From the NCBI GenBank assembly GCA_919901855.1, contig CAKKQC010000027.1, forward strand, positions 1 through 64,000: a stretch of 64,000 nucleotides of DNA. Reading direction: 5' to 3'. The notes beneath the pieces are model-generated. The model saw only the letters and a program-made list of their open reading frames with translations. It had not been told where the DNA came from and ran no database searches. Position numbers and translations under genes: made by a program. Below, in pieces: positions 8,601 through 24,431 of the stretch (within the stretch, counting starts at the first letter, position 1; each line of letters starts with the position of its first letter). The DNA comes from a bacterium. GTDB lineage: Bacteria > Oederibacteriota > CAKKQC01.

Positions 8601-9500
8601 GTCAGCGTAGGCGAGAGGGAGGGGGTCGGTCCGGCGGAGTAGTTGACCACCCCCGTCCCGGTCACGTCCGGCCGGTACGGCGACGGGATCGTCACGTTGA
8701 GCGCGGTCGCGTCACCCGTGTTGGTTACGGTCAGCGTCAGCCAGACGCCCTGGCCCTCGTTCCGGGACACCGGGATCGTCGTGAACGAAGCCGCGAGCGC
8801 GGCCGGACGCTGAATGACGTACGGCCCGGACGTGGCTGTGTCCGAGATCGCCTTCCCGGAGTAGCTGTCGGTCCCGTTCACGGTCGCCGTAAACCACACC
8901 GTCCCCGGCGCCGACCCCGTATAGGTCCAGGTGAAGGTCTGCGACTGCCCGATGCCGAGCGACGCCCACGGCAGGGCCGGGGTCGGCCCCGGGCCTTTCG
9001 TGGCGGACCCCGTTCCGGACACCCAGAACGGCATCGTCACGAGGTTGAGCAGCGTGTCTCCCGTCGCGGCGGCCCCGCCCGTGTTCGTGATCGTGACGGT
9101 CACGAGGAAGGTCTGCCCGACGTTGCGCGGGCTCAGGTACCCCGTCACGTAAGCGTCCAGGATCGCGGGTCCCGAGATCGTCGAGTAGACGGTAGCCGTG
9201 CCCAGCGCGGGCAGCCCGCCGCACGTGGAACCCGCGCCGCTCGCGGTGAACTGCACGACTCCGCCTCCGGAGGCGGAGTACGTCCACCGGAAGGTCTGAG
9301 CCGCCCCGGGATTGAGGTCCACGGGGCCCGGCGGGATGGGACCGAGTTCCTGGAACACCCGGTAGTCCCCGATCGGCCGGGCGATCGCGGGCATGACGCC
9401 CAGGACCGCGGTCGAGCCCGTGTTGGTCAACGTCAGCGCCACCGTGAACCAGGTGCCGATTACCGGGGCCGGCGGCGAGGTCACGCGCGCGGCCAGCTTC
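1..9500 (-). repeat. tandem array of ~27 CARDB/DUF11-like modules (~350 bp each)
   Basis: About every 350 bases the minus-strand frame returns to a motif of the form GQxFxVTLTVTNTGG, followed by a variable loop, a GPxP segment and an FTWTYTG strand. That is the pattern of CARDB or DUF11-type beta-sandwiches in very large surface proteins. Two module types alternate. One begins C-x-GQ-F/Y and ends near TDANSG. The other begins GQW and ends near TTCGG or TTLCGG. Modules start near 9470, 9120, 8760, 8400, 8010 and so on, down to about 350. Confidence 0.85.
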
Positions 9501-12500
9501 CCGCCGGCATTCGGCGGGCCCGCGAGCCGGAGATTGTCGACGTAGATCCGCCCTCCCGCCTTCGTGTTGGCGATGTCGAGATGGAGGATCAGGGTCGACA
9601 GGGCATCGGTCGACAGAACCGCGCCGCCGGCGGTCGTGAACGTGAGATCCAGCGACACGTTGTTCATGCCGGAGGCCAACAGGACCGTGGACGTGATCTG
9701 GCCCGTGAAGAAGTTGTTGGCGTACAGGCTCAGGTACGCCCCACCCGTCGTCCAGGGAAGGTTCCCCGGGTCGACGTACACATCCGCCGTGAACTTCGTG
9801 TACGGGGTCCACACGCTCGGCGTGAATCCGGTCAGGTTCGCCCACTTATCCTGCGTGTTCTGCGTGCTGGTGATACTGGCTAGCAGGCATCCCGTGCCCT
9901 GCGTGATCGCCGCCGCCGTCGTCCCGTTGACCGTCCGGGTCGCCCAGGCCCCGCTCCACGTCCCGTGGCCGTCTAGCGTCTCGGCGCCGCTGAGCAGCAG
10001 CGGACAGCCCGGGATCGTGTAGACCTCGGCGTTCGGGGACACGATCGGGTCCGAGGTCAGGGGTCCCGTGTCGGTGCCCGTGATCGTGACCGTGAGGTTG
10101 ACAACGCCGAGCTCGACCCCGGTCAGGGTCCACGTCAGCGAGAACAACGCGCCCGGGGCCAGCGAGGCGGGGACACCCGTCGCCGGGCCGTCCACGGGTA
10201 CCAGCCAGCCGCCGGTGCCAGTCTCCCAGAACGGCACGAGGTCGATCCCCGTCACGGTCATGACCCCCGTGTTCGACACCGAGAGCGTGGCGACCACCGT
10301 GCCCTCCTCCGAGAGAGCCGTGGACGAGAGCGTCCACCACCCCAGGAGCCACCCGCCCGCCACCTCGGTCACGGTGACGTCGTTGCTGGTGACCGTCGGC
10401 TGAGGAGAGAACGCGGGATTCTGGAAGTCCGCCTGCGCCGTGTTGGGCCCGACCGTGGACGCCATTCCGGAGACGGACACTGTCATCGTCACAGCCGTAA
10501 TTCCGCCCGGAACGACTTTCGCGATGTTCCAGACAGCCTTGGTCCCATCAAAGACCCCGCCCGGCGCGTTCACGAAGGCAACCCCGCCGGGCACCGTGTC
10601 CCAGACCTGGATATTGTAGGCAGTGTTGGCGCTCGTATTGGATACCGTGATCGTATATACGAGGTTGTCGCCGCGGTACACGGGATCCTTGTCCGCCGTC
10701 TTCACGAGCGCGATCTGAGTGTCCGGCGACATGAACGCGGCCGCCAGCCCGGCCACCTCGCCCTGGTAGGCGACGTCGTTCTCCGTGATCTCCCACGGCA
10801 CGGCCACGGCTCCGGACGCGTCCGGCCCCGTGCAACAGAACGCCCAGTCGCGGTACCAGTAGTGCCGGCCCGTGCCGCCGAGCCCGCCCAGCGGCGGAAC
10901 CACACTGCCGCCGTAATAGACGTTCGCGCCCCCGGGAATGATCCCGGGGAACGGCCCGTAGGTGGACGTGTTGTTGTCGTTAATCCCTATGCTGTCCGTA
11001 CCCGCGTAGTACGGGTATCCGATCTCGGCGACGGCGGCGGGTTTGCCGAGGAAGCTCGCCTTCCCGTCGGCGTCGCCCCAGTTGCCGAACCATCCGTGGT
11101 AGAGCTGCCACGAACTGTGCTCCCCGCCGATCGCGGCCATGTTCGAGGCGTAGACCATGTTCGGCCCGTTGAGACCGTAGAAGTAGTGCAGGATCGCCTG
11201 GGCCCGGTCGCGCGCCTCCTGGACCGTGTGCGTCCCCGTCGCCCCGATCCGGGCCGCGTGCAGCAGGTGGAGTCCACGCCGCCCCTTGTAGGCGTTACTC
11301 CCCCAGTTGAACTCCTCGTCGAGGTCGCACCCGGACATGTACCCGCCGCCCTTGGTGAACGCGTCGTTGACGAGGTTCGAGAAGTTCGCCCGCATCCCGT
11401 TGACGACCGAGCCGGTGGCCCCGGGGGCGAGCGTGTAGGCGGTCATGGCGCGCATGCCCGCCGTGTTCAGGCTCACGTTGTACTGCACCCACACGGAATT
11501 CATGCCCCCGGGGCTAGTCCAAGTGCAGTAGGTGTCCACATACGACTTCGCCGCCACCGCATTCGGACCGGCGTTGTCGAGCCGGTACAACTCGGCCGCG
11601 AACCAGAGCTTGCACTCGTTGCCGGTCAGGGCGGACTCCGCCGCCCACGCGCTGTTCGCGCATGCCGTCAGCGTCGCGGCGTATGCCGCGTCGTAGGGGG
11701 CCCACAATCGGGCCCCGATGCAGAAGCACGCGCCCGCGATCGAGGTCGAGTCGTTCGTGGGGTTGAGGTAGTACCGCGGGGTCCCCGTATCGCCGCTCGG
11801 CGGCGATCCCCCGCTGTAGTCGCCGAGCCTCTTCTTCACGATGGAAAGGACTTTCCCGCCCAGCCCGGGGGCCTGCATCTTGCGGTAGAAATCGAGCTGG
11901 AACCTGATCTCGTCGAGGCAGTCCGGCACGTTGTTCCCGGACTCCGGGATCGCGGTGGCGTCGCTGTTGTACGCCGTCGAGTTCAGCTCGAACCCCATCG
12001 CGATCCCCCAGACCGCGGCTCCCCCGTCGCCGCCCCAGCTTCCGCCGCCCTTGAGTCCCGCCGAGCCCAGGTACTTGTTGTAGTCGCCGGCGTCGTGCCA
12101 CCCGCCCGAGAGGTCGAGCGTGCCGTGGTTCGTCGCGTCCAGGTCGTCCCACTGGTTGTGGGCGCAGGCCGTGTCCGCCGTGTGGCAGGCGCCACCGGGA
12201 TCGGCCCAGACCCCCATGTGGGCCGGGCCGTGTGGAACGCCGCACCGCTGGGCGAAGAACGCCTTCAGGATCGCGTAGCCCGCCCGGTTGTAGACGCTCT
12301 CCTTGATATCGAAGTCGTAGCTCTTCCCCGCAAGAGCGGGCACCTTGAGGTAGTAGGTCCCCTCGGTCTTGAAGTTCGAGAAGTCGACCTGCCAGACGTT
12401 CTCGTTCGCGTCCGGGTCCAGCCCCTTGCTCGTGATGCTCCCGCCGTCGGCCGGGATCCGGTAGACGAGCGACCCGTCGGAGGCCCGGTGGACCTCCGCC

Positions 12501-15500
12501 GTCGCGCCCGGGTTGGCGTTCACGACCCCGATCTTCTGGTCGTTGAGCCGGTAGCCGAAGTGGTCGACCTTGATCGACGGCGCGAACGTGACGGGATCGA
12601 GGATCTGCTCGCCGTTCGACACGATCGGGGTCGTCGAGATCCCGCCCGCCGAGACGCTGTCCAAGGCGTAGACCGTGGCCGTGAAGTATTCGATCCCGGG
12701 GAGCGTCCCAGTGTACGTCCAGGTGAACGTGATCGACGCACCCGCGGCGAGCGTGACCGGCATGGCCGGCCAGGGACCCGCCACGTAGCTCACGCCGCCG
12801 GTACCCGACACCACGAACGGCGACGCGGTGACCCCCGTGGCCTGCGCGGTGCCCGTGTTCGTGACCGTGAGCGTGATCCTGAAGTTCGAACCCGTGTTCA
12901 CGTTCGGGAACGCGACCAGCCGGGCGTCGAGCACGGCATGGTCGACCTGGATCTCGTACCAGAGCGCGGCGTTCGCCTCCGAGATCGCGAACTGGGCTTT
13001 GCCGCCCGAGTTGTTGACCGTGACCGCCGCACCGCGCGCACCGGTGTTGGACAGCGCCCACACCCGCACGTTCGCCGGCGGGAACGGAAGCGTCATGCTC
13101 GCGGGCACGCCTTCGACCAGCGCGGGCGAGGAGCCCCAGTCGTTCCGGCTCGTTAACTGGGTGCCCTCCGGCGGCGGCCAGGCGATGGGCGTGCTCGGAT
13201 AGGTGTAGAAGCCCTGGCCCGTGTTGCGCTGGGCTCCCAGCGCGGTAAGCACGATCTCGCGCGCCTGCGACAGCGCCACCATCCCGTCCATGGCGGTCAA
13301 GGCGACGACGTTGTACCCGCCCTGGAGCCCCATGCCGGGCTGGAACTGGAAGCCCGAGAGCGTGATCGTCTTGCCCCCGCCGTACCCGACGATCCACTTC
13401 GACCGCGGGCTGTCCACGGTGACGAACCCCTTCCCCGCCGTCGAGGTGTCCCACACGAGCTGGCCGGTATCCGACCGGAGGACGTTGCCCGACACGTTCA
13501 CCGAACCGGGCGCCAGCGCGCCGCCGGGCACTACCGGGGTCTTGCCCGTCGCCAGTGCGATCCGGGTCACCAGCGCGACCTTGTCGTCGATCCCGACACT
13601 CCCGGAGCCCGGAATCCACCCGCCGCTGTCGGCGGCGCCGTTTATCTCGGCGTCCTGGCTCATGGACGCGACCATGACGCTGGTGCCGGGCGCGATGTCG
13701 CCCCGCAGGAACGCCGCGGCGGCGGGCACGAACGAGGCCATCTTGACCGGGTTCTGCTGGATGTCGAAGTATCCGTCGATCCTCTGCGAATTCCAGTTCG
13801 AGTTGGTCCCCGCGTAGGAGAACGGGAACAGGCCGTCGAAATCCTGGAGGGATCCGTACGCCGAGATCAATGGGAAGCACTCGGCCTCGAACGTGAGCGG
13901 CGCCGGGTGGTTGTACTCGGTCATGGTCACGGGCTTGCCGTATGTGCGCCAGCCCGCGTTCCCCGGTCCCGCGCCGGCGGGGTTGTTCACCATCGCTTTG
14001 TTGTATTGGTACCAGTCGGTCGCACTCCACGGGATGCCCGGGAAGGTCGGGTGGTTCCAGTACGCGTGGGTGTCCACGAAGTCCATGTCGGCCATGAGGT
14101 TCGCGGTCCCGAACCAGCCGGCGGTGCTCGTGACCAGTCCCTTGTACCCCAGCGTGGTCTTGATGTACGCGTACATGTCCAGCCAGTACGCGCGCTCGGT
14201 GTCCCACAGGAAGCGCTCGAAGTCCCGGCGGGCCGTGACCGTGCGGTCCGTGACCGTTTCCGGCGAGGTCGTGCAGTGCGACGAGCACGGAATGTAAAGC
14301 ATGGAGTTCGTGTCGAGGTTCTCGCCCGCGACCAGCCCGAAGGTGCCGCCGGACTTGAACGAGACCTGGGCGAGGTAGACGTTCCCCGCCTGCGCGCCCA
14401 TGTCGAACGAGATCCGGGCGTTCGCGTCCGTCGCCGTCGCCACGAACGAGAACGTGAAGAGCTGGTACGAGGTCGTCAAGGGGACGGTCTGATAGAGGCC
14501 GAGCGTGCCCCACGGCGAATGGTTCATCGCGATCGAGACAATCACGTCTCTAGCCACGCTCGCCTTGGCGTAGAAGCTCACCGTGTACGGCTGGCCGGCG
14601 GTCACCCCGAACCCGGCCTGCGTGAGCTGGATCTCCCAGGAGTTGGAGCCCGGGTTGGTTATGGTGTTGAGTTCCTGGTTGCTCCCCGCCGGCCCGCCCC
14701 CGATGATCACGCTCGGGACGGCGGCCGCGGCGCCCTGCACACCGAGACTCCACGGCGGCAGGGCCCCGGTCCCGAAGTCCCAGTTCGTCAGGATCTCGGC
14801 GCCCAGCGCCTGGTTGAACGCAAACCCGGCCGCCAGCATCGCCGCGTGGGTTCCGTACTTGGCCTTGAGCCAGAGGTTCCATTGAGACCTGAGCTCGCCG
14901 AGGTACGACGGCGGCAGGCTGTCGAGCATGCAGAGCGTGTATCCCGACACGAGCCCGTTCTCGTTGTTGATCTCGACCATGCCGACCGCCGGCTCGTCCA
15001 CGTACCGGTTCCCGGTGTACGCGTTAGTGTGGGTGAGGAGGTCGCGGGTGAAGTCCTTCTGAAGCGCGAGCGCCTTGGCATCGAACATGGGGATGAGGCC
15101 CCGGGTCTTCCACCCTACCTGCATGATGTCGGCGTTGAGATCCGTCCCGGGAAAGAACGGCCGGGAGACGACGGTGTTGATGTTGACGTAGACCCCGCTC
15201 GCCTTGAGCTGGGAGACGAAATAATCGAACTTGAGGAGCTGGCCCGCGTCGATCGTCCGGTCCGGCTGGGCCTCGCTCGCCGTCGTCCACCATCCGTTCC
15301 CCCACGTGCCGACGGCCTCCGCGTCCGCGTGGTGGATGCGCACCATGTTGACCCCGTACTTGGCGAGTCGTCCGGCCACCGCCTGGGCGTCCGCCTGCGT
15401 CGCCGGGAAGTTCGACCCGTACGTCGTGTTGGTGCCCCAGAACCGGATCCGGCCGTTGGTCGTGGCGAAATGGCCCTGGGGGTCGGCAAAGACGAACCCG

Positions 15501-15649
15501 TACTTGCCCGCGGGCTTGTCCAGATAGACCGAGAGGTCCGTGAGCGTGGGGGTGGAATCGTTCCAGGGGAGCGTGAACGGGATGACGGCGCGGGCGTCCG
15601 GAGCCAGCAGGCACAACAGGAAAAGAGGAATGCGCCGGGCCCAGGTCAT
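1..15649 (-). CDS. giant secreted multidomain glycoside hydrolase (barrel + CBM + GH9 + CARDB-like repeats), 3' end outside window
   Basis: An ATG at 15649 opens a frame with no stop down to base 2, so at least 5216 residues are encoded and the C-terminus is outside the window. Residues 1-20 form a signal peptide (MTWARRIPLFLLCLLAPDARA). Residues ~25-640 look like a GH-A clan TIM barrel: the candidate acid/base is E230 in VEINNENGL and the nucleophile E578 in MTEYNHP. A CBM4/9-like sandwich is inserted at ~285-438. Residues ~905-1015 are CARDB-like, ~1020-1105 a CelD_N-type Ig domain, and ~1110-1640 a GH9 catalytic domain with D1186/D1189 in GGWHDAGDYNKY and acid E1631 in TENDVAYQGEV. A DUF11-like domain (~1645-1745), one sandwich and a CBM-like jelly roll (~1880-2040) follow, then about 27 CARDB-like modules to the window edge. 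It probably degrades beta-glucan polysaccharide outside the cell. GH9 is confident; the first barrel's family is not. Confidence 0.85.
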   Translation of the reverse strand, partial: MTWARRIPLFLLCLLAPDARAVIPFTLPWNDSTPTLTDLSVYLDKPAGKYGFVFADPQGHFATTNGRIRFWGTNTTYGSNFPATQADAQAVAGRLAKYGVNMVRIHHADAEAVGTWGNGWWTTASEAQPDRTIDAGQLLKFDYFVSQLKASGVYVNINTVVSRPFFPGTDLNADIMQVGWKTRGLIPMFDAKALALQKDFTRDLLTHTNAYTGNRYVDEPAVGMVEINNENGLVSGYTLCMLDSLPPSYLGELRSQWNLWLKAKYGTHAAMLAAGFAFNQALGAEILTNWDFGTGALPPWSLGVQGAAAAVPSVIIGGGPAGSNQELNTITNPGSNSWEIQLTQAGFGVTAGQPYTVSFYAKASVARDVIVSIAMNHSPWGTLGLYQTVPLTTSYQLFTFSFVATATDANARISFDMGAQAGNVYLAQVSFKSGGTFGLVAGENLDTNSMLYIPCSSHCTTSPETVTDRTVTARRDFERFLWDTERAYWLDMYAYIKTTLGYKGLVTSTAGWFGTANLMADMDFVDTHAYWNHPTFPGIPWSATDWYQYNKAMVNNPAGAGPGNAGWRTYGKPVTMTEYNHPAPLTFEAECFPLISAYGSLQDFDGLFPFSYAGTNSNWNSQRIDGYFDIQQNPVKMASFVPAAAAFLRGDIAPGTSVMVASMSQDAEINGAADSGGWIPGSGSVGIDDKVALVTRIALATGKTPVVPGGALAPGSVNVSGNVLRSDTGQLVWDTSTAGKGFVTVDSPRSKWIVGYGGGKTITLSGFQFQPGMGLQGGYNVVALTAMDGMVALSQAREIVLTALGAQRNTGQGFYTYPSTPIAWPPPEGTQLTSRNDWGSSPALVEGVPASMTLPFPPANVRVWALSNTGARGAAVTVNNSGGKAQFAISEANAALWYEIQVDHAVLDARLVAFPNVNTGSNFRITLTVTNTGTAQATGVTASPFVVSGTGGVSYVAGPWPAMPVTLAAGASITFTWTYTGTLPGIEYFTATVYALDSVSAGGISTTPIVSNGEQILDPVTFAPSIKVDHFGYRLNDQKIGVVNANPGATAEVHRASDGSLVYRIPADGGSITSKGLDPDANENVWQVDFSNFKTEGTYYLKVPALAGKSYDFDIKESVYNRAGYAILKAFFAQRCGVPHGPAHMGVWADPGGACHTADTACAHNQWDDLDATNHGTLDLSGGWHDAGDYNKYLGSAGLKGGGSWGGDGGAAVWGIAMGFELNSTAYNSDATAIPESGNNVPDCLDEIRFQLDFYRKMQAPGLGGKVLSIVKKRLGDYSGGSPPSGDTGTPRYYLNPTNDSTSIAGACFCIGARLWAPYDAAYAATLTACANSAWAAESALTGNECKLWFAAELYRLDNAGPNAVAAKSYVDTYCTWTSPGGMNSVWVQYNVSLNTAGMRAMTAYTLAPGATGSVVNGMRANFSNLVNDAFTKGGGYMSGCDLDEEFNWGSNAYKGRRGLHLLHAARIGATGTHTVQEARDRAQAILHYFYGLNGPNMVYASNMAAIGGEHSSWQLYHGWFGNWGDADGKASFLGKPAAVAEIGYPYYAGTDSIGINDNNTSTYGPFPGIIPGGANVYYGGSVVPPLGGLGGTGRHYWYRDWAFCCTGPDASGAVAVPWEITENDVAYQGEVAGLAAAFMSPDTQIALVKTADKDPVYRGDNLVYTITVSNTSANTAYNIQVWDTVPGGVAFVNAPGGVFDGTKAVWNIAKVVPGGITAVTMTVSVSGMASTVGPNTAQADFQNPAFSPQPTVTSNDVTVTEVAGGWLLGWWTLSSTALSEEGTVVATLSVSNTGVMTVTGIDLVPFWETGTGGWLVPVDGPATGVPASLAPGALFSLTWTLTGVELGVVNLTVTITGTDTGPLTSDPIVSPNAEVYTIPGCPLLLSGAETLDGHGTWSGAWATRTVNGTTAAAITQGTGCLLASITSTQNTQDKWANLTGFTPSVWTPYTKFTADVYVDPGNLPWTTGGAYLSLYANNFFTGQITSTVLLASGMNNVSLDLTFTTAGGAVLSTDALSTLILHLDIANTKAGGRIYVDNLRLAGPPNAGGKLAARVTSPPAPVIGTWFTVALTLTNTGSTAVLGVMPAIARPIGDYRVFQELGPIPPGPVDLNPGAAQTFRWTYSASGGGVVQFTASGAGSTCGGLPALGTATVYSTISGPAILDAYVTGYLSPRNVGQTFLVTVTITNTGGAAATGDTLLNLVTMPFWVSGTGSATKGPGPTPALPWASLGIGQSQTFTWTYTGSAPGTVWFTATVNGTDSYSGKAISDTATSGPYVIQRPAALAASFTTIPVSRNEGQGVWLTLTVTNTGDATALNVTIPSPYRPDVTGTGVVNYSAGPTPSLSPTLTRTIPGGMSITFTWTYSASSPGWIVFTETVTARDGTSGAVLTTGPVMTGTFYIDKAAVLEALFECPAVVNVGQPFLVTLTVSNTGGGTAGPFTVAPVFSLTATPITVSGAGSVTTLLDPTPGYPYFLPGHTGVVFTYTFTGVSPGLVTMITQVTATDFNNSAYLDTGLLYVNGGPDSVLVQVGSDMRGSPVTAKRPDGATTVCIGDRIQVAMTVTNSGGAPVLNLSGTCFVAGTGKAAFAWMNPVGTTLPGGGNRAFFTWTFSATGAGVLDFTVTVTGNDGNSGAALSATRISNPVTIAGPGALRAVVSAPTSSPGDETIEVVLTVTNSGGAPLDITNVNMVSTDDGIGIYHDFANGPMPGGTASGVMPGTSAMFTWTYYVWGGAPWTAPDIIWTGSVDAVTCGGLVLSTWDTSAPSNVKLDGSLKVLANTICTGQNFLVTLTITNNGSVAATGLVTPPLSTVGPGGVTYVAGPRPAQPYGPLNPLARITFTWTYTASTAGSVTMQASADATDGSTGEPVSAGPYVSNALLIGDPGAFSVSGSVSPGVLVGSPFTVRLTVTNTGGMPITALTATVYATPGGAFVSRPLGPVPINLASLAANGATTFIFTYTATGAGAVTFTMSVAGTTCGAVQRVKAVVSTVVSTPAVLSATVMVSPLPNRDVGQEFFVTLRVRNSGGATAQGLNIEPFWITGPGGAAYSSGPDPVLPMDLASGASAVFSWTYTGASPGLVRFTTTVTALDVASGLPISLGWRLSNTVLIQAPAALDAAVSLVPLSVCSPTGTFQVRLTVTNTGGATATAMVMSGWVITGAGGVSAGSGPLPPMPFTLGGGLSQTFTWTYTGITNGDVTFTSSVSGIGANTGATTYAGPVSSPALTVGSPGAFGVVTTVQPYVSAGQWFEVFLTVTNTGGTDITNLGATVYVNPGSAFVSKPSPPVPVVVPLLVPGDWQTFSFGVTATGAGVVTFTASGVGMTCNGATPLKLGAWVSATVQTAVALSATIGIYPVAPCVGQDFVVTLTVTNTGGAAATGVDLVNAPIVMTGAGTATLKDGPMPGLPVDLAGGASAVFTWTYTGLTAGVLTLSTTVTATDANSGVLKTTGVIKRAATITTAGQLTATAWGPAKVSLGQWFGIRVTVTNTGGSAVTALTATAFAGPGGGLVGGPGVPVPVALALLGVGGTTTFAFSCTATGLGNVTFTVTAVGSTLCGGVPMPATGAGIVNVLIQKPAQLAAQVVQYASAVCTGQPYLVTLTVTNTGEADANGVNVQWPANPFGVGGGGNATKADGPMPAMNVSLAGGASQTFTWTYSGSAAGNVILTTTVTGTDANSSAVVTTGAVPSNAIAVAAAGALVARTTVSPGRVSIGQWITVALTVTNTGGADVNGVLPDVAVGPGAALVVAESGPVPAGPVTILSGTSQTFVWTYSANGAGLAVFTGTGTGTTCGSTNLLAASTVTATVQTPAALDATVKLLAATACTGKTFLVTLTVTNTGQADATALTAAAWTLDGGGAATGVGPNPVLPVALAGGATWTFTWTYTGSAAGPVTFTTTLSAVDANSTFPVTVGPLAAGPVTVTDPGVLAAVSSVPPYVSVGQWFPVELTVTNTGGTDITGLTATAYVNPGSGFVSKPWNAIPAGPITLTAGTSQTFMFGVTATGAGVVTFTASGVGMTCGGTTALVAKASVSATVQSAIALSATVGIYPAAPCVGQDFVVTLTVTNAGQATAWGMDLVAPPLVMTGGGTASLSAGPYPALPATLLGGATAVFTWTFTGLTAGVLTLSSTVTATDANSGVVKTTGALNRAATISTPGAFAVAGAAPVAVSEGQWFTVALTVTNTGGTAVTALTATVYAGPGGGLVSGAEGPVPVDLASLAAGTATTFYFSYTATGAGPVTFTVTVAGTTLCGGVPTPVQAVRSVVVTIQKPAQLTAAVAQYASAICTGQSYQVTLTVTNTGEADATGVDVQWPGNPFGVSGGGNATKTAGPVPAMPVTLAGGASQTFTFTYLGAAVGSVILTTTVTGTDANSLAGVTTGLVPSPAIAVTAAGALSARTTVTPGQVSIGQWITVALTVTNSGSADVDAVLPDLAVGPGSGLVGLETGPTPSGPVTLAAGASQTFVWSYSATGAGLAVFTATGTGTTCGSTNLLAASVVTATVQTPAALVAYAKAYVASVCTGQNFLVTVTVTNTGGATASGVNALWELSGLGGAATGVGPTPVLPASLVGGASATFTWTYTGTVAGQVILTTTVTAVDANSLSVLTSGLRGATGPKGMSVDNPGVLDVVATVPGHVSVGEWFPLTLTVSNTGGMGAAIVTGVTATAYVNPGGGFVSNPSSPIPAGPFTLIPGGSALFMFGVTATGAGVVTFTASGVGMTCSGATALIAKASVSATVETAVALSATIGIYPTGPCVGQDFVVTLTVTNSGQATATGLDVVAPPLVMTGGGTASLSAGPYPALPATLLGGATAVFTWTYTGLTAGVLTLSTTVTAMDANSGVVETTGALNRAATISTAGAFASAIAAPAAVSAGQWFTVALTVTNTGGTAVTGLSATIYAGPGGGLVSVAQGPVPVDLASLTVAGATTFVFSYTATGAGPVTFTVTVAGTTLCGGVLVAVEAAGSVTVQVQVPAQLTAQAAQYASAICTGQSYQVTLTVTNTGEADATGVNVQWPGNPFGVSGGGNATETAGPEPAMPATVAGNSSVTFTWTYSGSSAGTVILTTTVTGTDANSLGVVTTGAVPSSAIAVTAAGALVACTTVSPPVVSAGQWVTVALTVTNAGGADVTGMLPDLAVGPGAALVGLETGPIPAGPVTLTAGTSQTFVWTYSTAGAGLAVFTATGTGTTCGSTNLLAASVVTATVQTPAALAGSVATGPGAACVG

Positions 15650-15703
15650 GGTCCGGCGCGTACCTCTATCTGATACCGGCGTGTGAGTGGTTGAAACGGG
15701 AAT

Positions 15704-15725
15704 CCCCCTGCCCTCCCCTTACCCC
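15704..15725 (-). promoter_or_regulatory. G-quadruplex-type motif in the leader of the giant gene
   Basis: The minus strand carries four G-runs (5'-GGGG TAA GGGG A GGG CA GGGGG-3') about 55 bases upstream of the giant gene's ATG. This fits the consensus for an intramolecular G-quadruplex with very short loops. It lies on the coding strand, so it would be in the mRNA leader if transcription starts upstream of it. A role in expression is inference only. Confidence 0.4.
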
Positions 15726-15813: not shown

Positions 15814-17367
15814 TCAGCGCGCGAGCTGGTCCACGTACGCCTTGAGCGGGGGATTGTCCGGGTGGAGCCGGAGGGATTCGCGGTAGGAGACGAGAGCCGC
15901 GGACTTGTCCCCCTTGGCCAATTGGCAGTTGCCGACGAGCTGCCAGGCCTCCCAGTTGGTCCGGTCCGCGGTCAGGACCGCCGACCCCTTCCGCCACGCG
16001 CCGTCGATGTCGCCGGCCACGTACAGGGCGGTCGCGGACGCGACCGCAGACGAAGCCGAGGACGGCTTCGTCGCGGCGGTCGCCGCGGGCGGGGTCGCGG
16101 GCACGATCCTCGTAAGGAACGTCCTGAGTTCGGGGTTGTCGGGGTGGAGCTCGAGCGACTTCTTGAACGCGGCGACCGCCCCCTGCGTGTCCCCCTGCGC
16201 GTGGAGGGCGTTGCCCTTCATCTGCCAGGCTTCCCAGTAGAACGGGTTGAGCTTGATCGCGTCGGTGGCCTTGGAGACCGCGGTCGCCTGGTCGCCCGCC
16301 GCGAAGGCGGCGGAGGCGTCCCGGAGCGCCTGCGTCGCGTCGCGCTCGAGCTCGGCCGAGATCATGGTCTCGCCCGTGCGCTTGGGCCCGAGCGTGCTGA
16401 GCGCGATGACGTGCGCCTCCTCGAACTCGGCCTCCTGCCGCTCGACGGCGGAGGGGCCGAGCCCGTAGAGGAAGGCGAACCGGTGGCTGACCGCGAGGTC
16501 GCCGAACGGCTGGTAGGCGTAGTCGAGGCCGAACCGGCCGGCCCGCACCCCGGCGCCGACCCCAAAGCCCGTGAGCCCGCCGAGGGACTGGTCCTTGCCG
16601 CGGTGGCCGTAGCCCATCCGGAGGGCGATCGCCTTCACGGGCAGGAGCTCCGCGCCGAGCGAGACGCGCGGCGACTTGTCCGTCAGTCCGTACCCGCCCT
16701 CCGCCGCCACCCGGAGGCGCGGGGACATGAGCCAGGCGAGCCCGGCCCGCACGGACCCGGGCAGCGAGAATCCGGCCGACTTCGTCCCCAGGTGCAGGAC
16801 CGCCCACCCGGCGCGCAGGCCCGGGGCGACGGGCACAAGTCCGCCCGCCGAGACGCCGTAGAGCGCCCCGCCCCCCACGGCCTCGTCCACGCGCTCGATC
16901 GCGACGCCCGTGTAGCCCCCGAGGAACGGGGGGTTGGCGGCCGCGATCGAGAACGAGACCGCGAGATCCCGCGCTTCCCGCGTGCCCGTGATGACGCCGT
17001 CGGCGTCACGGAGCTCGTAGGAGCCGTAGGAGAACGAGGTCAGCGAGAGACCCAAAGTCTGCCGCGCCACCGGGATCGCGACGGCGCCGTAGACGAGCGA
17101 GAGGCCGTTCCCCGCGTTGTCGTACTGCACTTGTCCCTCCGCGTTCCGGCAGAAGCCGAGCCCCCCGGGATTCCACGAGATGGCGGAGGCGTCGTCGGCC
17201 ACGGCCGTGAACGCCTCCCCCATCCCGACCGGCCGCGCGGCCATGCCGCGGGCGAGGAAGGCCGCGCGCCGGAACCCGAACTCGGACGACACCAGGGGCA
17301 GGTTCTCGGCGCGCGCCTGCGCCGCGAGAGCCAGGCACGCGAGGAGGAGAAGTCCCGGTCCCCTCAT
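15814..17367 (-). CDS. PorV/PorQ-like (UPF0164) outer-membrane beta-barrel protein with C-terminal TPR repeats
   Basis: The ATG at 17367 overlaps the stop of the upstream gene (ATGA), and the protein starts with a signal peptide (MRGPGLLLLACLALAAQARA). Residues ~20-320 carry the PorV/UPF0164 signature: an N-terminal segment ARPVGMGEAFTAVADDASAI, then WNPGGLG, then alternating amphipathic beta-strands (e.g. LRVAAEGGYGLTDKSPRVSLGA). Residues ~360-517 contain TPR units ending in the same phrase, SLxLHPDNP, twice. Family members in Bacteroidota carry or bind secreted proteins at the outer membrane. The open frame extends 49 codons upstream, but the signal peptide and the overlap fix this start. 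Translational coupling to a huge secreted protein suggests a partner role in export or surface attachment, which is an inference. Confidence 0.8.
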   Translation of the reverse strand: MRGPGLLLLACLALAAQARAENLPLVSSEFGFRRAAFLARGMAARPVGMGEAFTAVADDASAISWNPGGLGFCRNAEGQVQYDNAGNGLSLVYGAVAIPVARQTLGLSLTSFSYGSYELRDADGVITGTREARDLAVSFSIAAANPPFLGGYTGVAIERVDEAVGGGALYGVSAGGLVPVAPGLRAGWAVLHLGTKSAGFSLPGSVRAGLAWLMSPRLRVAAEGGYGLTDKSPRVSLGAELLPVKAIALRMGYGHRGKDQSLGGLTGFGVGAGVRAGRFGLDYAYQPFGDLAVSHRFAFLYGLGPSAVERQEAEFEEAHVIALSTLGPKRTGETMISAELERDATQALRDASAAFAAGDQATAVSKATDAIKLNPFYWEAWQMKGNALHAQGDTQGAVAAFKKSLELHPDNPELRTFLTRIVPATPPAATAATKPSSASSAVASATALYVAGDIDGAWRKGSAVLTADRTNWEAWQLVGNCQLAKGDKSAALVSYRESLRLHPDNPPLKAYVDQLAR

Positions 17368-20300
17368 CGCTCCACCCGCAGCTTCGCGACCGGGAACGTC
17401 CGGACGACCCCGTTGAGATAAGTCACCGTCGCGCGGATGAGGTACATCCCGGGCGCCCAGTGCCGCAGGTCCTTGATCGTCACGTTGCCGTCGATCGACG
17501 GGATCAACCCCCACGTGCCGGTAAAGACCCGGTGCATGGAGGCGTCGTAGGCGTCGAGCACGATCAGCAGAGTATCACTCCCGAGCGCGAGATAGCACGT
17601 GACCTGGTCCCCCCGCGCGGGGTTCGGGTAAAGGGCGATCTCGCCCGAAGGCCGCGCGGTAACCGCGAGAGTGGCCGAGGCCGAGGTCCCGATCCCGGCC
17701 GTAGTCCACACGGTGCCGGAAAGACCGTCGTAGAACCCGGACAGGAGCCCGGTCAGCTTGACGGACCCGCCGTCTACCGAGGTCATCCGCCAGACCCACT
17801 CCTTCGATTCCCCGTTCGCGAGCGTCGCGCTGAGCTCCGCAGGACCCAGGTCCACGCGCACGAGCCGGGGATCCGACACGCTCAGCGCCGGCCGAACGTC
17901 CCAGACGGTGGCCGCACCCGTGTTCGTGACCGTGAGCCGGAACGTGAAGGGCGTCCCGTACCGCATCGCCGCCGGCGTCGCGCTCGCGCTGGCCACCAGG
18001 GTAGGCGCGGCCGCCACGAACACGGTGTTGGAAGTCACCCCCGTCATGCTGACGGTCCAGAAGGTGGGCTCCGTCCAGAAGACGGACGCGCCGAACGAGA
18101 CCGTCCCCGAAGCCAGGGCGGTCACCGTCCATGTGAACACCTTGGGCGGACAGCCGGTCGTGTCGACGACACAGTTGATCTGGGGACACGCCTCGACCAG
18201 GCTCCAGGAAGCCGGATTCGGGCCGCCCGCTTGCATGGCGAACGACGTGGACGAGATCCGCAGCGACGCCGTCGGCGTGACCGACCAGATCGGGATCGCG
18301 CCCGTGTTCGAGACGGTCATCGTGACGAGGATCGTGCCGCCCTGCGCGACGACGGGCGGACTCGCCGTCAGCCGGGCGGTTAGCTGGCCCACGGGCACGA
18401 GGCAGGCGAACCCGAAGACCGTCGCACTGAACCCGACCCCGTATCCACTGTCGGTGCCGTATGCGATCGTGGCCACCTCGATCCATCCCTCGCCGGACGT
18501 GCTGTACGTCCAGATGAACGCGGTCGCGGACTGGCCGTGGACCATCAACGGGCCCGGCGGTTCCGGCCCGCTCGCGAGCGCGAGGGCCGGGCTGCCCGTA
18601 AACGGCACCGTCACCGGCACCGGCCAGACGGAGACGGCATCCAACGGCATGTCCCCCGTGTTCGTGACCGTTACCCGGACCGTAACCATCTGCCCGGAGG
18701 CTACCACCATGGAAGTGATGGAAATATCCGAGCTCATCACGGCCGGCCGCGCGAGCATGCACGACCCGGAACCGCCCGCCGACGCCACGCCCCCCGCCCC
18801 ATCGTCCCCGGTCACGGTCGCGGTGAGCTGGAGGACGCCGTAGCCCGACACCGAGTACGTCCACGTCAGCACGGTGGAACTCCCCACCGGCAGATTGAGC
18901 ATCGCCACCGGCCCGGACTCGAGGATCAGCGCCCCGGGCGGAACGTAGACCACGCTCGGCACCAGGTTGCGGGCCTCCAGCGCTCCCGTGTTCGTGATCG
19001 TGAGCGTGACCGTTAGCCACTGCCCCACGAGAACTGTCGACGAGGGAGCGGGCATCGCGAGGGCGACGTCGAGCACGGCGATGGGCGCGACGAGGAGGGT
19101 CGCCGAACTCGACGCGGCCAGCGACCCGCCGAGCCCGGTGTCGATTCCGGTTACCGTCGCCGTCCACGTCACCAGCCCGTACCCGGTGACCGAGTAGGTC
19201 CAGATGAACGTACGCGTGGCGCCCGGCGCCATCGTGATGGTCCCGGACGGCGTCGGCCCGACGGAGAGCGTGACCGAGAGGGCGGCCGTGTTGAGCTCGA
19301 TCTCGGGGATGACCATCTCCGCGTCCGCGAGCCCGGTGTTCTTCACCCGGCACCGGACGTCCACGGCCTGGCCGGGGATGGCCTGGTTCGGCACCACCGT
19401 GAGGAGGGCCGTCAGGAACGCGGCCTCGAGCATCGCGTTGGCCGTCAGGCTCGAGGTCGCGGACGCCCCCTGGTCGTCGACCGGGATGATCCGGTACCGG
19501 TACCGGAGCCCGTTGGTCACGTTCGTGTCGGTGAAGGCGTTCGACGCCGCGCCGGTGACGTCCGCGTACCAGTTGTCGAGCGTGATCGCGACCGTCGAGG
19601 TCGTGGCCCGGTACACGCGGTACCCGGACACCGCCCGGGTCCCGGCGGACGCCTGCACCCAGGAGATGCTGATGGCCGCCCCGGCCGCGACCGCGGTAAG
19701 CCCCGCCGCGGGCCGGGGCGGGCTGAACGGGGCGAATCCGTACTTCGCGACCGCCGCGTCCATCTGGCCGTCGGGCATGCCCTCGCCCCCGGCCACGACC
19801 GCGTACCCCGTGCCCGAGATCGCCACCGCGTACAGGACGTCGGACCCCGACGCGAGGCCGTCATGGGTGAACGTGTCCAGGAGGTTCCCGGCGTTATCGA
19901 ACCGCACGACGAGCCAGTTCTCCCCCTGGCCCAGGTCCGCCCGGGTCTCGGAGCCCGCCACGATCACGTTGCCGCCCGCGTCCACGGCGACCCCGCGGGC
20001 GTAGTCGTTGCCGCCGGCGGGCGAGTCGTAGGTCCAGTCCCAGAGGAGGTGCAGACGGGGGTCGTACTTCCGCACGCGCCAGTTGGTCCCCTCGGCGGCC
20101 GTGTCCTCGTAGCCGGCGACGATGAAGTTGCCGACGGGATCGACCGCGACCACGGGCGCGTAGGCGGAGTAGCCCGGCGGGTTGTACGCGGTGGCGCCCA
20201 GGAGGGATCCCAGCGAGGCGTTGTACTCCCGGATGGACCACTTCACCGTCCCGGGGGACACGGTCTCCTGCCCCACCGCGAGGATGTTCCCGCCCGCGTC

Positions 20301-23300
20301 CACGGCCACGGACGTGGCGATGTCGTAGAGGCCCGCCGGACCCGCGTAGGTCGTGGATGCGACCAGGCTCGTGAGGCCGGCGTTGGACTTCGAGATGTCC
20401 CAGGCCGCCTTGGCGAGCAGGGCCGTCTCCCCGTACCCGGCTACGATCACCTCGCCCGCGGCGTTCGCCGCCACCGCCATCGCCTCGTCGACCCCGTTCG
20501 CGGGCCCGTTGAACGTCATGGAGCCCAGCACCGTCCCGACCGTCGAGTCGTACTTACGGACCCGCCAGTCCCACCAGGCGGCGGCGGTCTGTTCCGATCC
20601 GGCCACCAGGACCGATCCCGAATCCCCCAGGGCGATCCCGTAGGCGAAGTCCCAGCCCCCCGCCGGGCCGTCGTAGGTCGGGCTGTTGATCAGCCAGTTC
20701 AGGGCCGGGTTGTACTCCCAGATCCGCCAGTCGGACGACGGACCGGCCGTGGCTTCGGTGCCCGCGGCGTACACGGTGCCGCCGGCCGTCACCGTCACGG
20801 CCCTCGCCAGGTCCCCTCCCCCCGCCGCGCCGCCCCACAGGGCCAGGCCCAGCAGAGGCGACGCGATCCGCTGGCCCGTGGCGGTGACGGACGCCGGCAG
20901 GGCCGCGGGCACCGTGCCCGCGACGTCGCAGGACAATGTCGCGCTAGCGAAGACCTGGACGATCTGGGCAGGCCCGGTGAGGAGGTTGGTCGACCACGAG
21001 ATCGTCCCGTTCCGCCCCGGGTACACGGTCGGGATGACCCAGCGCAGGTACAGGGGATCGGGGGTGGCGTCCGGGGGCTGGAGCAGGGTCCAGGGACCGG
21101 CGAGGCTCGTGGCCCAGCTCGCGGTCTTCGTCATCCCGCCGGTCAGGATCACGCTCTGCGAGGCGCCCACGTACATGCGCTCCTGGAAGGAATCGGGGCC
21201 GGTCGTGATCGTCAGGTTGTACACCGTCGTCGAACCGGCCAGGCTGAAGCCCAGGGTCCATGTCTGGGTGTCGCCGCCGTTCGCGTAGAGCGGCGCCGGG
21301 GGCAGGGCTTTCAGGACCAGCCCGTCCGAGCACGGAACGATCTTCTGCAACGCGGCACTCGCGGCCGTGAGGACGGGAAGACCGGAACCCGTGTCGTCGC
21401 CCGAGGCGGTCGCCGTGAACGTCGCCGAGACGCCCCCCACCGCCGTGTAGTTCCACGTGAACGACTGGGACGCCCCGGCCATGATCGTCACGGGGCCCGC
21501 GGGCAACGGGCCCGAGACGGGCGTGAGATTCGCCGCCCCGGTGTTGATGTCGATCTCGGGGACCACGTTGATCACATCCGCGCTCCCGTTGTTCGTGACC
21601 GTCAACACCACCTGCACCGGGTCGCCCGGCGATGCGCTGTCCGGCGTAACCGCCAGAGATCCGTCGAACAGGACCTTCAGGACCAGGGCGCCGCCCGCCA
21701 CCGCTAGCACGGGCCTTCCGAGGCCGGTATCGTCGCCCGAGGCGGTCGCCGTGAACGTAGCCGAGACACCGCCCACCGCCGTGTAGTCCCACGTGAACGC
21801 CTGCGACGCCCCGGCCGCGATCGTCACGGGGCCCGCCGGAAGGGGACCCGACACAGGAGTGAGGTTCGCGGCCCCCGTGTTGATGTCGATGGAGGGTATG
21901 ACGTTGGTCGCGTCCGCGGTCCCGGCGTTCGTCACCGTCAGAACCACCTGCACCGGGTCGCCCGGCAACGCGCTGGCCGGCGTCACCGCCAGGGACGGGA
22001 TGAACTGGACGGACGGGCTAACGGTCATGACCGCCGAGCTCGCGGCCCCGATCGGGTTCCCCGTCCAGGAATCGGTCCCGGACGCGGTCGCCGTCAAAGC
22101 GATCGACCCGAGACCGGACGCGCTGAAAGTCCACGTGAAGGCGGCCTGCCCGCCGCCCGGGATCGACACCGGCCCCGCCGGCAAGGGCCCGCCCTGAAAC
22201 GCGATCGCGCCGGAGCCGCCATTGATCTCGACCGCGGGCAGCACGCCCGTGGCGGGCAGGCCGCCCGTGTTCGTGACGGTCAGCCGCGCCTCGATCCAGG
22301 TCCCTATTCCGGCGGGGTCGGGGACGAAACTCAACGACGTCTGGAGGGCCGCCGGGCTCTGACCGGTGAAGGCAGCAATGCCCGAGGCCCGAACCGTGAC
22401 CAGCGCGTCGGTGTCGGTCCCGGTCACGGTTGCCGTGAACGTCGTGATCCCCGCCCCCGAACCGCTCCATGTCCACACGAACGTAGTAGCGCCGAAGCCC
22501 TGGATCGTGAGCGGGGCCGCCGGCACCGGGCCCGCGATCAGCTCGGCGATGCCGGAATCCGGCGAGAGATCAGGCGTAACCGCCGTCAGGGAGGCCCCAC
22601 CGTCGTTCGTCACCGTAAGCGAGACCGTGAACCATTGCCCCATCACGGTCGCCGAAGGATCCACGTTGAGAGCGAGGCTGAGACCGAGGAACTTCCCCAC
22701 CTCGTTCACGTCGAACGCCGTGAAAGAGGTGAAATCCACGCCGCCTACCGCGAGGATCTTGTTGCTGACCACATCCGCGGCCAGATACTGCCTCGCGGTG
22801 AGCATGGGATCCATGAGATCCCAGGCATCGGCGACCGGATCGTAGGCCTCCACGGTGTCGACCGGGAAGAAGAACTCATCGAGGCCGCCCAGGACGAAGA
22901 TGCGGCCGTTCACCACGGCGGCCGAAGAACTGCCCCGCGGCGCCGGCATGACCGCCTTCGCGGACCACGCGTTGGTCAGGGGATCGTAGGATTCGACGGT
23001 GTCGACGATATTGGCGCCATCGTACCCGCCAATCGCAAAGATCCTGTTCCCGGTGACGGCGGCGGCGCGGATCTCGCGTGCTGTCGGCATGCCCGCCTTC
23101 GTCACCCAGGTGTTCGTGTCGGGGTCGTATGCCTCGACCGTTGGGTAGTACGCGCCGCTGGCAGCGTCGCGTCCACCGATAGCGTAGACCGTCCCGCCGA
23201 TGGCCACCGCCGCAAGATCGCACCTTGGGGTCGGCATGGGCGCCTTGGTCGCCCACGTGTCCGATCCGGGGTCGTACACTTCCAACGTGGCGAGTTCCGT

Positions 23301-23657
23301 GAACCCATCGTCCCCGCCCACGACGTAGATCTTCCCGCCGGCAACCGCGGCGGCCGCCGCCCACCTTGCGGTCGGCATCGGAGCCTTCGTCGCCCAGGTG
23401 TCGCCGACGGGATCGTAGGCCAGGACCGTGCCCACGTAGGCGAAGGCGGTCATGTCGTAGCCCCCGATCGCGAAGAGCTTACCGGTCGCGGAGCCGACCA
23501 CTTGCCCGAAGATCTGCGACGGCATGGGGGCTTTCGAATTCCATATGGGGACCGCATGGGCCAACCGGGCCGACACAGCCAGAGACATCAGCAATAAGGC
23601 TGCGGGGACTCTCCCCGCGTTGGCACGACTCACTCCCCCGTCCATCCTCGAAGTCAT
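17364..23657 (-). CDS. very large secreted kelch / CARDB / propeller / FN3 protein with YPNP (FlgD-like) C-terminal domain
   Basis: About 2097 residues. I place the start at the ATG at 23657, because an in-frame GTG at 23702 lies inside a hairpin. A signal peptide ends at ARLAHA. Six kelch repeats follow (e.g. FAIGGYDGANIVDTVESYDP), forming a propeller over residues ~35-330. Then come four CARDB-like sandwiches, a linker, a second propeller-like region of repeats such as GGNVIVAGSETRADLG, an FN3 domain and more CARDB-like modules. The last ~90 residues (IALYPNPARG to AKLRVER) match a FlgD-like/T9SS type A-like C-terminal domain. Its modules resemble those of the giant glycosidase, so the two are related surface proteins. 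No catalytic domain is visible; adhesion or scaffold function is likely. Confidence 0.8.
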   Translation of the reverse strand: MTSRMDGGVSRANAGRVPAALLLMSLAVSARLAHAVPIWNSKAPMPSQIFGQVVGSATGKLFAIGGYDMTAFAYVGTVLAYDPVGDTWATKAPMPTARWAAAAAVAGGKIYVVGGDDGFTELATLEVYDPGSDTWATKAPMPTPRCDLAAVAIGGTVYAIGGRDAASGAYYPTVEAYDPDTNTWVTKAGMPTAREIRAAAVTGNRIFAIGGYDGANIVDTVESYDPLTNAWSAKAVMPAPRGSSSAAVVNGRIFVLGGLDEFFFPVDTVEAYDPVADAWDLMDPMLTARQYLAADVVSNKILAVGGVDFTSFTAFDVNEVGKFLGLSLALNVDPSATVMGQWFTVSLTVTNDGGASLTAVTPDLSPDSGIAELIAGPVPAAPLTIQGFGATTFVWTWSGSGAGITTFTATVTGTDTDALVTVRASGIAAFTGQSPAALQTSLSFVPDPAGIGTWIEARLTVTNTGGLPATGVLPAVEINGGSGAIAFQGGPLPAGPVSIPGGGQAAFTWTFSASGLGSIALTATASGTDSWTGNPIGAASSAVMTVSPSVQFIPSLAVTPASALPGDPVQVVLTVTNAGTADATNVIPSIDINTGAANLTPVSGPLPAGPVTIAAGASQAFTWDYTAVGGVSATFTATASGDDTGLGRPVLAVAGGALVLKVLFDGSLAVTPDSASPGDPVQVVLTVTNNGSADVINVVPEIDINTGAANLTPVSGPLPAGPVTIMAGASQSFTWNYTAVGGVSATFTATASGDDTGSGLPVLTAASAALQKIVPCSDGLVLKALPPAPLYANGGDTQTWTLGFSLAGSTTVYNLTITTGPDSFQERMYVGASQSVILTGGMTKTASWATSLAGPWTLLQPPDATPDPLYLRWVIPTVYPGRNGTISWSTNLLTGPAQIVQVFASATLSCDVAGTVPAALPASVTATGQRIASPLLGLALWGGAAGGGDLARAVTVTAGGTVYAAGTEATAGPSSDWRIWEYNPALNWLINSPTYDGPAGGWDFAYGIALGDSGSVLVAGSEQTAAAWWDWRVRKYDSTVGTVLGSMTFNGPANGVDEAMAVAANAAGEVIVAGYGETALLAKAAWDISKSNAGLTSLVASTTYAGPAGLYDIATSVAVDAGGNILAVGQETVSPGTVKWSIREYNASLGSLLGATAYNPPGYSAYAPVVAVDPVGNFIVAGYEDTAAEGTNWRVRKYDPRLHLLWDWTYDSPAGGNDYARGVAVDAGGNVIVAGSETRADLGQGENWLVVRFDNAGNLLDTFTHDGLASGSDVLYAVAISGTGYAVVAGGEGMPDGQMDAAVAKYGFAPFSPPRPAAGLTAVAAGAAISISWVQASAGTRAVSGYRVYRATTSTVAITLDNWYADVTGAASNAFTDTNVTNGLRYRYRIIPVDDQGASATSSLTANAMLEAAFLTALLTVVPNQAIPGQAVDVRCRVKNTGLADAEMVIPEIELNTAALSVTLSVGPTPSGTITMAPGATRTFIWTYSVTGYGLVTWTATVTGIDTGLGGSLAASSSATLLVAPIAVLDVALAMPAPSSTVLVGQWLTVTLTITNTGALEARNLVPSVVYVPPGALILESGPVAMLNLPVGSSTVLTWTYSVSGYGVLQLTATVTGDDGAGGVASAGGSGSCMLARPAVMSSDISITSMVVASGQMVTVRVTVTNTGDMPLDAVSVWPVPVTVPFTGSPALALASGPEPPGPLMVHGQSATAFIWTYSTSGEGWIEVATIAYGTDSGYGVGFSATVFGFACLVPVGQLTARLTASPPVVAQGGTILVTMTVSNTGAIPIWSVTPTASLRISSTSFAMQAGGPNPASWSLVEACPQINCVVDTTGCPPKVFTWTVTALASGTVSFGASVFWTEPTFWTVSMTGVTSNTVFVAAAPTLVASASATPAAMRYGTPFTFRLTVTNTGAATVWDVRPALSVSDPRLVRVDLGPAELSATLANGESKEWVWRMTSVDGGSVKLTGLLSGFYDGLSGTVWTTAGIGTSASATLAVTARPSGEIALYPNPARGDQVTCYLALGSDTLLIVLDAYDASMHRVFTGTWGLIPSIDGNVTIKDLRHWAPGMYLIRATVTYLNGVVRTFPVAKLRVER

Positions 23658-23741: not shown

Positions 23742-24431
23742 TCAGTCGGGCAGGACCGCGTACCCGAAGACGCGGGCGAGGTGGTCCGCCACCTCGAAGG
23801 CCACGGCGGCGGGGTCCTCGGACTTGCCCGTCACCGACGCGAGCGAGGCCGCCCGGCCGTCCGGAATCCCGCAGGGCACGATCCACGAGAACGGCTCGAG
23901 GTCGTTCGAGAGGTTGACCGAGAACCCGTGCATGGTGATGTTGCGCTTGACCGAGATCCCCACCGAACCGATCTTGGCGTCGCCCACCCAGACGCCGCGG
24001 TTGACGGGGTCCCGCCGGGCGTCGACGCCGCGGGTCTTCAGGAACCGGATCAGGGTCTCCTCGAGGTTGAACACGAACCGGTGGATGTCCCGGCCCTGGT
24101 GCCAGAGGTCCGCGACCAGGTACCCGACGAGCTGGCCGGGGTTGTGGACCGTCGCCTGGCCGCCGCGCTCGACCCGGTGGATCGAGGCGCCGCGGGCGAG
24201 GATCTCCTCGCGCGGCCGGCGCAGGTGCCCGGCGTCGTACCGGCGTCCGAACGTGATCACGAGCGGATGTTCCATGAGGAGGAGGGTATCGCCGGCCGCG
24301 CCGTCCTTCCGCTTCTGCACGAACTCGTGCTGGAGGTCGAGGCCGTCGCCGTACGGCACGAGCCCCCGCCATTCCACCGAGAGGGCGCGGGCGGCGTCGG
24401 ACTCCGCCGCGTCCTGCCGGCGCCTGCTCAC
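23742..24431 (-). CDS. lipB: lipoyl(octanoyl) transferase LipB
   Basis: This 229-residue enzyme moves octanoyl groups from acyl-ACP to lipoyl domains of 2-oxoacid dehydrogenases. Visible LipB motifs are RGGQATVHNPGQLVGY (usual form RGGQxTxHGPGQ), the lysine K153 in GDAKIGSVGI, and the catalytic cysteine C187 in VPCGIPDG. The start is a GTG at 24431 whose GTGA overlaps the stop of the upstream SDR. It lies last in an operon that encodes an E2 lipoyl protein, so it probably lipoylates that E2. LipA is not in the window. The HNPGQ in place of HGPGQ is a mild departure from consensus. Confidence 0.93.
   Translation of the reverse strand: MSRRRQDAAESDAARALSVEWRGLVPYGDGLDLQHEFVQKRKDGAAGDTLLLMEHPLVITFGRRYDAGHLRRPREEILARGASIHRVERGGQATVHNPGQLVGYLVADLWHQGRDIHRFVFNLEETLIRFLKTRGVDARRDPVNRGVWVGDAKIGSVGISVKRNITMHGFSVNLSNDLEPFSWIVPCGIPDGRAASLASVTGKSEDPAAVAFEVADHLARVFGYAVLPD

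Follow-up and report, generated by a model that had tools for sequence, protein, structure and literature searches.

In the type IX secretion system (T9SS) of F. johnsoniae, the C-terminal sorting domain (CTD) of a substrate is bound within the SprA pore by SprA and the extracellular loops of PorV, and the substrate is thought to exit SprA sideways together with PorV (PMC10994853). A single PorV serves every type A CTD, whereas each type B cargo has a private PorP/SprF barrel, whose gene usually lies immediately downstream of the cargo gene (PMC12618676); examples are the pairs SprB-SprF of F. johnsoniae and PG1035-PorP-PorE of P. gingivalis. The type B shuttle may also be a surface anchor, tied to peptidoglycan by PorE, which has TPR and OmpA-like domains (PMC9143113). 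PorQ, a PorV-family barrel, keeps one CTD protein, PorZ, whose CTD is left uncut (PMC10202324). In recent papers the T9SS is confined to Bacteroidota or to the FCB group, with its genes absent elsewhere (PMC11285876).

The locus described here belongs to an uncultured bacterium, distant from Bacteroidota, that by its label lies outside the FCB group. It was found in a 64,000-nt stretch of DNA, referred to as the window, with the following features:

15814..17367, minus strand: PorV-family 14-strand barrel with C-terminal TPRs, 517 aa (family profiles, AlphaFold2 model, fold matches); proposed private carrier/anchor
16450..17307, minus strand: N-terminal hatch plus 14 strands of the mature barrel (residues 1-286 of the mature protein in the AlphaFold2 model; PorV aligned over 5-289)
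15817..16356, minus strand: predicted periplasmic tail, two TPR blocks (TPR matches and model)
17364..17367, minus strand: ATGA overlap of cargo stop and barrel start (junction read from the sequence)
17364..23657 (ATG start) or 23702 (GTG start), minus strand: cargo gene, ~2100 aa (domain matches)
17367..17663, minus strand: CTD, type-A-like, class b of the genome (CTD profile, CTD model, fold match)
2..15718, minus strand: GH9 giant with CBM4_9 and CARDB, the adjoining gene downstream (domain matches)

The stop codon of the cargo gene and the start codon of the barrel gene had 4 nt in common (..gagcgATGAgg..), and high GC at third codon positions supported both genes as real (GC by codon position 0.61/0.57/0.90 in the barrel gene and 0.73/0.55/0.89 in the cargo gene). 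The cargo possessed a signal peptide, a Kelch propeller, CARDB/DUF11 repeats, a delta-60 repeat, a weak fn3 match and, at its C-terminus, the CTD (a ..YPNPARGD..WAPGMYLIRATVTYLNGVVRTFPVAKLRVER domain). The barrel protein also carried a signal peptide, with TPR matches at residues 340-420 and 431-510. These coordinates and the junction agree with the first-pass annotation, which had described a PorV-like barrel with TPRs overlapping by four bases a secreted CTD protein of ~2100 residues; the giant glycosidase that it had placed just beyond is the adjoining GH9 protein. The C-terminus of this GH9 giant falls past the contig end, where the presence of a CTD cannot be read. Upstream of the cargo, a gene at 23742-24600 (minus strand) was LipB-like, a lipoyl(octanoyl) transferase as judged by eye from its translation, so a separate unit seems to begin with the cargo-barrel pair.

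Against the NCBIfam family PorV_fam (NF033709) the window barrel scored 86.4 bits (E 2.5e-24), just under the cut-off of 90, and 94.4 bits in the genome search with neighbouring pieces. Its AlphaFold2 model (pLDDT 86.5) had 14 strands followed by TPR helices. The best fold matches in the PDB were F. johnsoniae PorV alone (6h3i_F; E 3.9e-11, Z 31.8, rmsd 3.0, 274 aligned) and PorV with substrate (8gl6_F; E 7.3e-11, Z 31.7, rmsd 3.5, 279 aligned), which answered the concern of the first-pass annotation that the barrel fold might be unrelated to PorV. FadL channels (Z up to 30.0) and BamG (Z 24.9) matched the model as well, and the modelled fold alone would set PorV apart from FadL only by a little. 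When PDB sequences were compared with the barrel profile, PorV was the best match (E 1.4e-11), and the next had an E of 0.0023. Assignment of the window barrel to PorQ was rejected (59 bits against an equivalog cut-off of 220), as was assignment to PorP/SprF, which was absent among the 19 NCBIfam families matched at E up to 1, a set that included the PorV and PorQ families.

The window locus was one case of a pairing that extended across the genome (4.68 Mb in 91 contigs, 93% complete), from which the stretches around matches were taken for analysis. PorV_fam had 66 matches in the genome, and a profile iterated from the window barrel yielded 60 distinct barrel genes. Genes upstream of these barrels encoded C-termini of a single family (single linkage joined 49 of the 58), and a profile built from these C-termini detected 97 CTDs genome-wide (E up to 0.01), so that other proteins with the same type of C-terminal domain, which the first-pass annotation had suggested counting, proved plentiful. 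A CTD was situated directly upstream and on the same strand in 52 of the 60 barrels, bearing out genome-wide the earlier proposal that a PorV-type putative carrier is coupled to a CTD cargo. In 49 of these pairs the CTD was at most 150 nt from the barrel domain, compared to a chance expectation of about 0.09-0.1 (97 x 150 / (2 x 4.68 Mb) per barrel, x 60). Gene overlaps of 4 nt (NTGA) occurred in 30 of the 49 pairs, with one-base overlaps in 6 more (raw counts). The ~50 paired cargos were mostly large secreted proteins, comprising CARDB/DUF11 proteins, propellers of the Kelch, SBBP and NHL types and S8 peptidases, with the GH9 enzyme adjoining the window pair. There were 45 CTDs without an adjoining barrel and 8 barrels without an adjoining CTD, and several of the barrel-less CTD genes stood in rows of two to four before one pair (contigs C23, C27, C7 and C6). 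Near contig starts there were two near-identical CTD/barrel pairs (C12:1782-2977 and C37:794-1989) and two CTD matches at equal offsets (C2:504-752 and C34:504-752); these are perhaps recent duplicates where the assembly broke, and copy numbers are therefore approximate.

The curated type A CTD model (TIGR04183) had 18 matches in the genome, 15 of them above its cut-off, and made no call on the window cargo. The window CTD was linked to type A by its fold and by the profile of the genome's own CTDs (E 1.8e-18, with the window CTD included in the profile). Its structural model (pLDDT 94) was most similar in fold to the CTD of P. gingivalis PorU, and the CTD profile matched PorZ (2e-10), PorU (2.5e-8) and also FlgD. 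A Lys near the C-terminus is near-invariant in type A CTDs (PMC10994853) and was present in 44 of the 49 paired CTDs. A search of the window cargo for the type B CTD (TIGR04131/CHU_C) was negative at E up to 1.

The trees of barrels and CTDs agreed (Mantel Spearman 0.58; p < 1/2000, with a mean of 0 and a maximum of 0.16 in 2000 permutations), and of 49 pairs, 48 fitted a correspondence between three CTD types and three barrel clades. The agreement also held within classes, being reached by 9 of 2000 stratified permutations, and by 2, 15 and 47 of 2000 in classes a, b and c, respectively. Cargo bodies (the part between signal peptide and CTD), which are repeat-rich and were compared by BLAST scores, did not follow the barrels (0.009, inside the null), which argues against simple whole-operon copying, as this would have brought the bodies too; among locus pairs without body homology the barrel-CTD agreement was 0.55. 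Partial correlations with CTD distance were 0.24 for the outer loops, 0.17 for the periplasmic turns and 0.34 for the N-terminal hatch. The outer loops explained CTD distance no better than other barrel parts did, and we make no claim about individual sites.

The genome encoded SprA (C23:68244-74108), with 204.8 bits for TIGR04189 (cut-off 200) and an E of 8e-19 against SprA in the PDB. The protein is divergent and its match to Pfam SprA_N was marginal, leaving TIGR04189 and the PDB match as the basis of the assignment. A CTD gene and then a barrel gene followed sprA, and across the phylum a CTD gene lay directly 3' of sprA in 6 of 13 loci examined. SprA matches were found in 40 of 45 phylum genomes, and in 24 of 25 good genomes, most of them below the NCBIfam cut-off. 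The view that PorV-like proteins occur here without a recognised T9SS was therefore not upheld, and the search for T9SS components advised in the first-pass annotation gave a divided result, with SprA recovered and PorU not. PorU (peptidase C25), which cuts off the CTD in P. gingivalis and F. johnsoniae, was not found in this genome, where at 93% completeness the gene may be missing from the assembly, nor in five other phylum genomes, nzgw597 among them. The same search was positive in five Ignavibacteria-type genomes, and one genome of the phylum (G012) had a single PorU-family match. GldM and GldL, also part of the described T9SS, had no match in the genome, an absence that is weak as the search had no positive-control genome. 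Elusimicrobia are reported to lack T9SS genes (PMC11285876), whereas two Elusimicrobia MAGs (G047 and G048, which carry loci L073 and L074) had SprA matches of E ~1e-20, in frames of 1794 and 1824 aa.

The closest named genome was the MAG Candidatus Coatesbacteria nzgw597, placed in the same family because G001 and G045 had identical SprA matches. Identical matches likewise placed in the phylum two MAGs whose labels read candidate division FCPU426 (CSMAG_228) and 'bacterium RS_6_11', all labels being those of the submitters. The order of giant, barrel with tail and GH9 protein was kept in nzgw597 (locus L067), where the GH9 protein at the same place ended in a CTD. Barrel matches ranged from 7 to 61 per phylum genome, and many were also present in Elusimicrobia, Firestonebacteria and Ignavibacteria-type MAGs. 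In non-random samples, a CTD gene lay upstream of 7 of 20 high-scoring barrels from other families of the phylum and of 17 of 20 from Ignavibacteria-type MAGs. At four loci (L073, L080, L083 and L087, from MAGs of Elusimicrobia and Firestonebacteria and MAGs labelled FCPU426 or RS_6_11), the sequence following the barrel in barrel proteins of ~650 aa gave weak CTD-like matches (E 7e-5 to 3e-3), as if carrier and CTD-like domain were fused. A barrel 50% identical to that of the window was found at a contig start in a Proteobacteria-labelled MAG (L068, JADFIG010000039.1); it was the only PorV-family match in that genome, no SprA was found there, and the contig is possibly misbinned. We found no report of such cargo-carrier pairs in the open-access literature; closed papers and preprints were outside the scope of this search, and we do not claim priority.

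The system consists of type A parts in a type B arrangement. It shares with the PorV/type A branch of P. gingivalis and F. johnsoniae the presence of SprA, the PorV-family fold and an Ig-like CTD with a Lys near its end, and differs from it in having ~50 barrels, each with one CTD gene, rather than one PorV for all cargos. As SprA, PorV-family barrels and type-A-like CTDs were present, yet PorU was not found, we call the system type IX-like. Like the type B pairs, it has a large cargo gene with a barrel gene directly downstream, and the private carrier/anchor proposed here would parallel the type B shuttle; TPR and OmpA parts, assigned to the periplasm, occur in both, in a separate PorE there and in tails fused to the barrel here. 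The barrel is PorV-family and the CTD type-A-like, in contrast to the PorP/SprF barrel and type B CTD of those pairs, so the system resembles the type B/SprF family without being a member of it. PorQ-PorZ is similar in joining a PorV-family barrel to one CTD protein, but is one housekeeping pair, whereas the present genome has tens of pairs whose cargos vary.

We consider it probable (roughly 0.7) that the window locus is one of ~50 cargo-carrier gene pairs in a type IX-like, SprA-based system, with a private PorV-family carrier/anchor for each cargo. By analogy with the described systems, we infer that the signal peptide would take the cargo across the inner membrane and that the folded CTD would bring it to the outer-membrane translocon SprA, where the barrel encoded directly downstream would take up the CTD by its outer loops and carry the cargo out via the SprA side opening. 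The first-pass annotation had instead suggested testing for CTD binding in the barrel lumen, a site that is at odds with solved T9SS structures, where extracellular loops of PorV hold the CTD in the SprA pore (PMC10994853). Coupled translation from the overlapping genes would supply one barrel per cargo. As no PorU was recognisable that could remove the CTD, each cargo probably remains held by its barrel, which would act as a non-covalent surface anchor.

Some members carry a TPR, CsgG/LpoB-like or OmpA tail that would reach into the periplasm, and such tails would fit an anchor role for the barrels. Among 33 tails, 5 were TPR, 11 CsgG/LpoB-like (most of class c), 2 OmpA and 4 fn3, and many of the 60 barrels had no tail. 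A general role for TPRs as a periplasmic docking arm, as first proposed, was rejected, with TPRs on only 5 of 60 barrels and other tails or none elsewhere. The CsgG/LpoB-like domain is known from curli export and from activation of peptidoglycan synthases. Here, the domain (TolB_N-like) was observed behind the barrel at seven class c loci (L062, L029, L044, L037, L042, L040 and L028) and one class b locus (L060). A more far-reaching version of the private-carrier reading, which we advance only tentatively, is a type IX-like system outside the FCB group that lacks the sortase and perhaps also GldLM: its CTDs would stay uncut, and each cargo would have a stoichiometric barrel of its own for both export and anchoring. 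One divergent SprA would then be used in turn by tens of carrier-anchors, and the TPR, CsgG/LpoB-like and OmpA tails would replace PorE/SprE scaffolds.

The unpaired 45 CTDs and 8 barrels, together with the weaker pairing in other families of the phylum, count against private carriers, and the lack of GldL and GldM matches and the divergence of SprA count against the type IX-like reading. The unpaired genes also bear on the alternative that the paired barrels serve only in surface anchoring or display, with SprA and one general PorV exporting all CTD proteins: CTDs without an adjoining barrel must use some other carrier, the unpaired barrels could be general carriers, and one barrel lies within the sprA gene cluster. 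The uncut CTD of PorZ stays on PorQ (PMC10202324), for which the same role has been proposed. We nevertheless regard this alternative as rather unlikely. The best PorV_fam score in the genome was 167 bits, compared to 308-323 bits in Ignavibacteria-type genomes, so none of its barrels reaches the score of a general PorV orthologue, and the shuttles of type B cargos export and may also anchor them (PMC12618676, PMC9143113).

The pairs might also be a by-product of descent, in which cargo and barrel were duplicated as a unit and the barrels are interchangeable, with no specific recognition. Paralogous pairs do arise by duplication, agreement between trees alone cannot show binding, and the loop comparison was not specific to the outer loops; yet cargo bodies did not follow the barrels, the barrel-CTD agreement held where bodies shared no homology, and adjacency and 4-nt overlaps were kept in very divergent pairs, making this explanation quite improbable. 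Finally, the locus would encode no secretion pair at all if the barrel were a FadL-like channel or BamG-like assembly factor and the CTD an ordinary FlgD-like Ig domain, as their shared barrel fold and the FlgD match of the CTD profile would allow. This is very hard to reconcile with best matches that were all T9SS proteins (PorV for the barrel, PorZ for the CTD profile and PorU for the CTD fold), with the position of the domain at the extreme C-terminus and with the presence of SprA.

The phylum has SprA together with many PorV-family barrels, most of which, in this genome, are tied to one CTD by gene order and shared descent. If the private-carrier reading is true, private carriers are not a speciality of type B cargos, and the paired arrangement could be ancestral, with a shared PorV evolving from it later. 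What a carrier reads in a CTD would then be testable on ~50 natural pairs, in three classes, within one genome.
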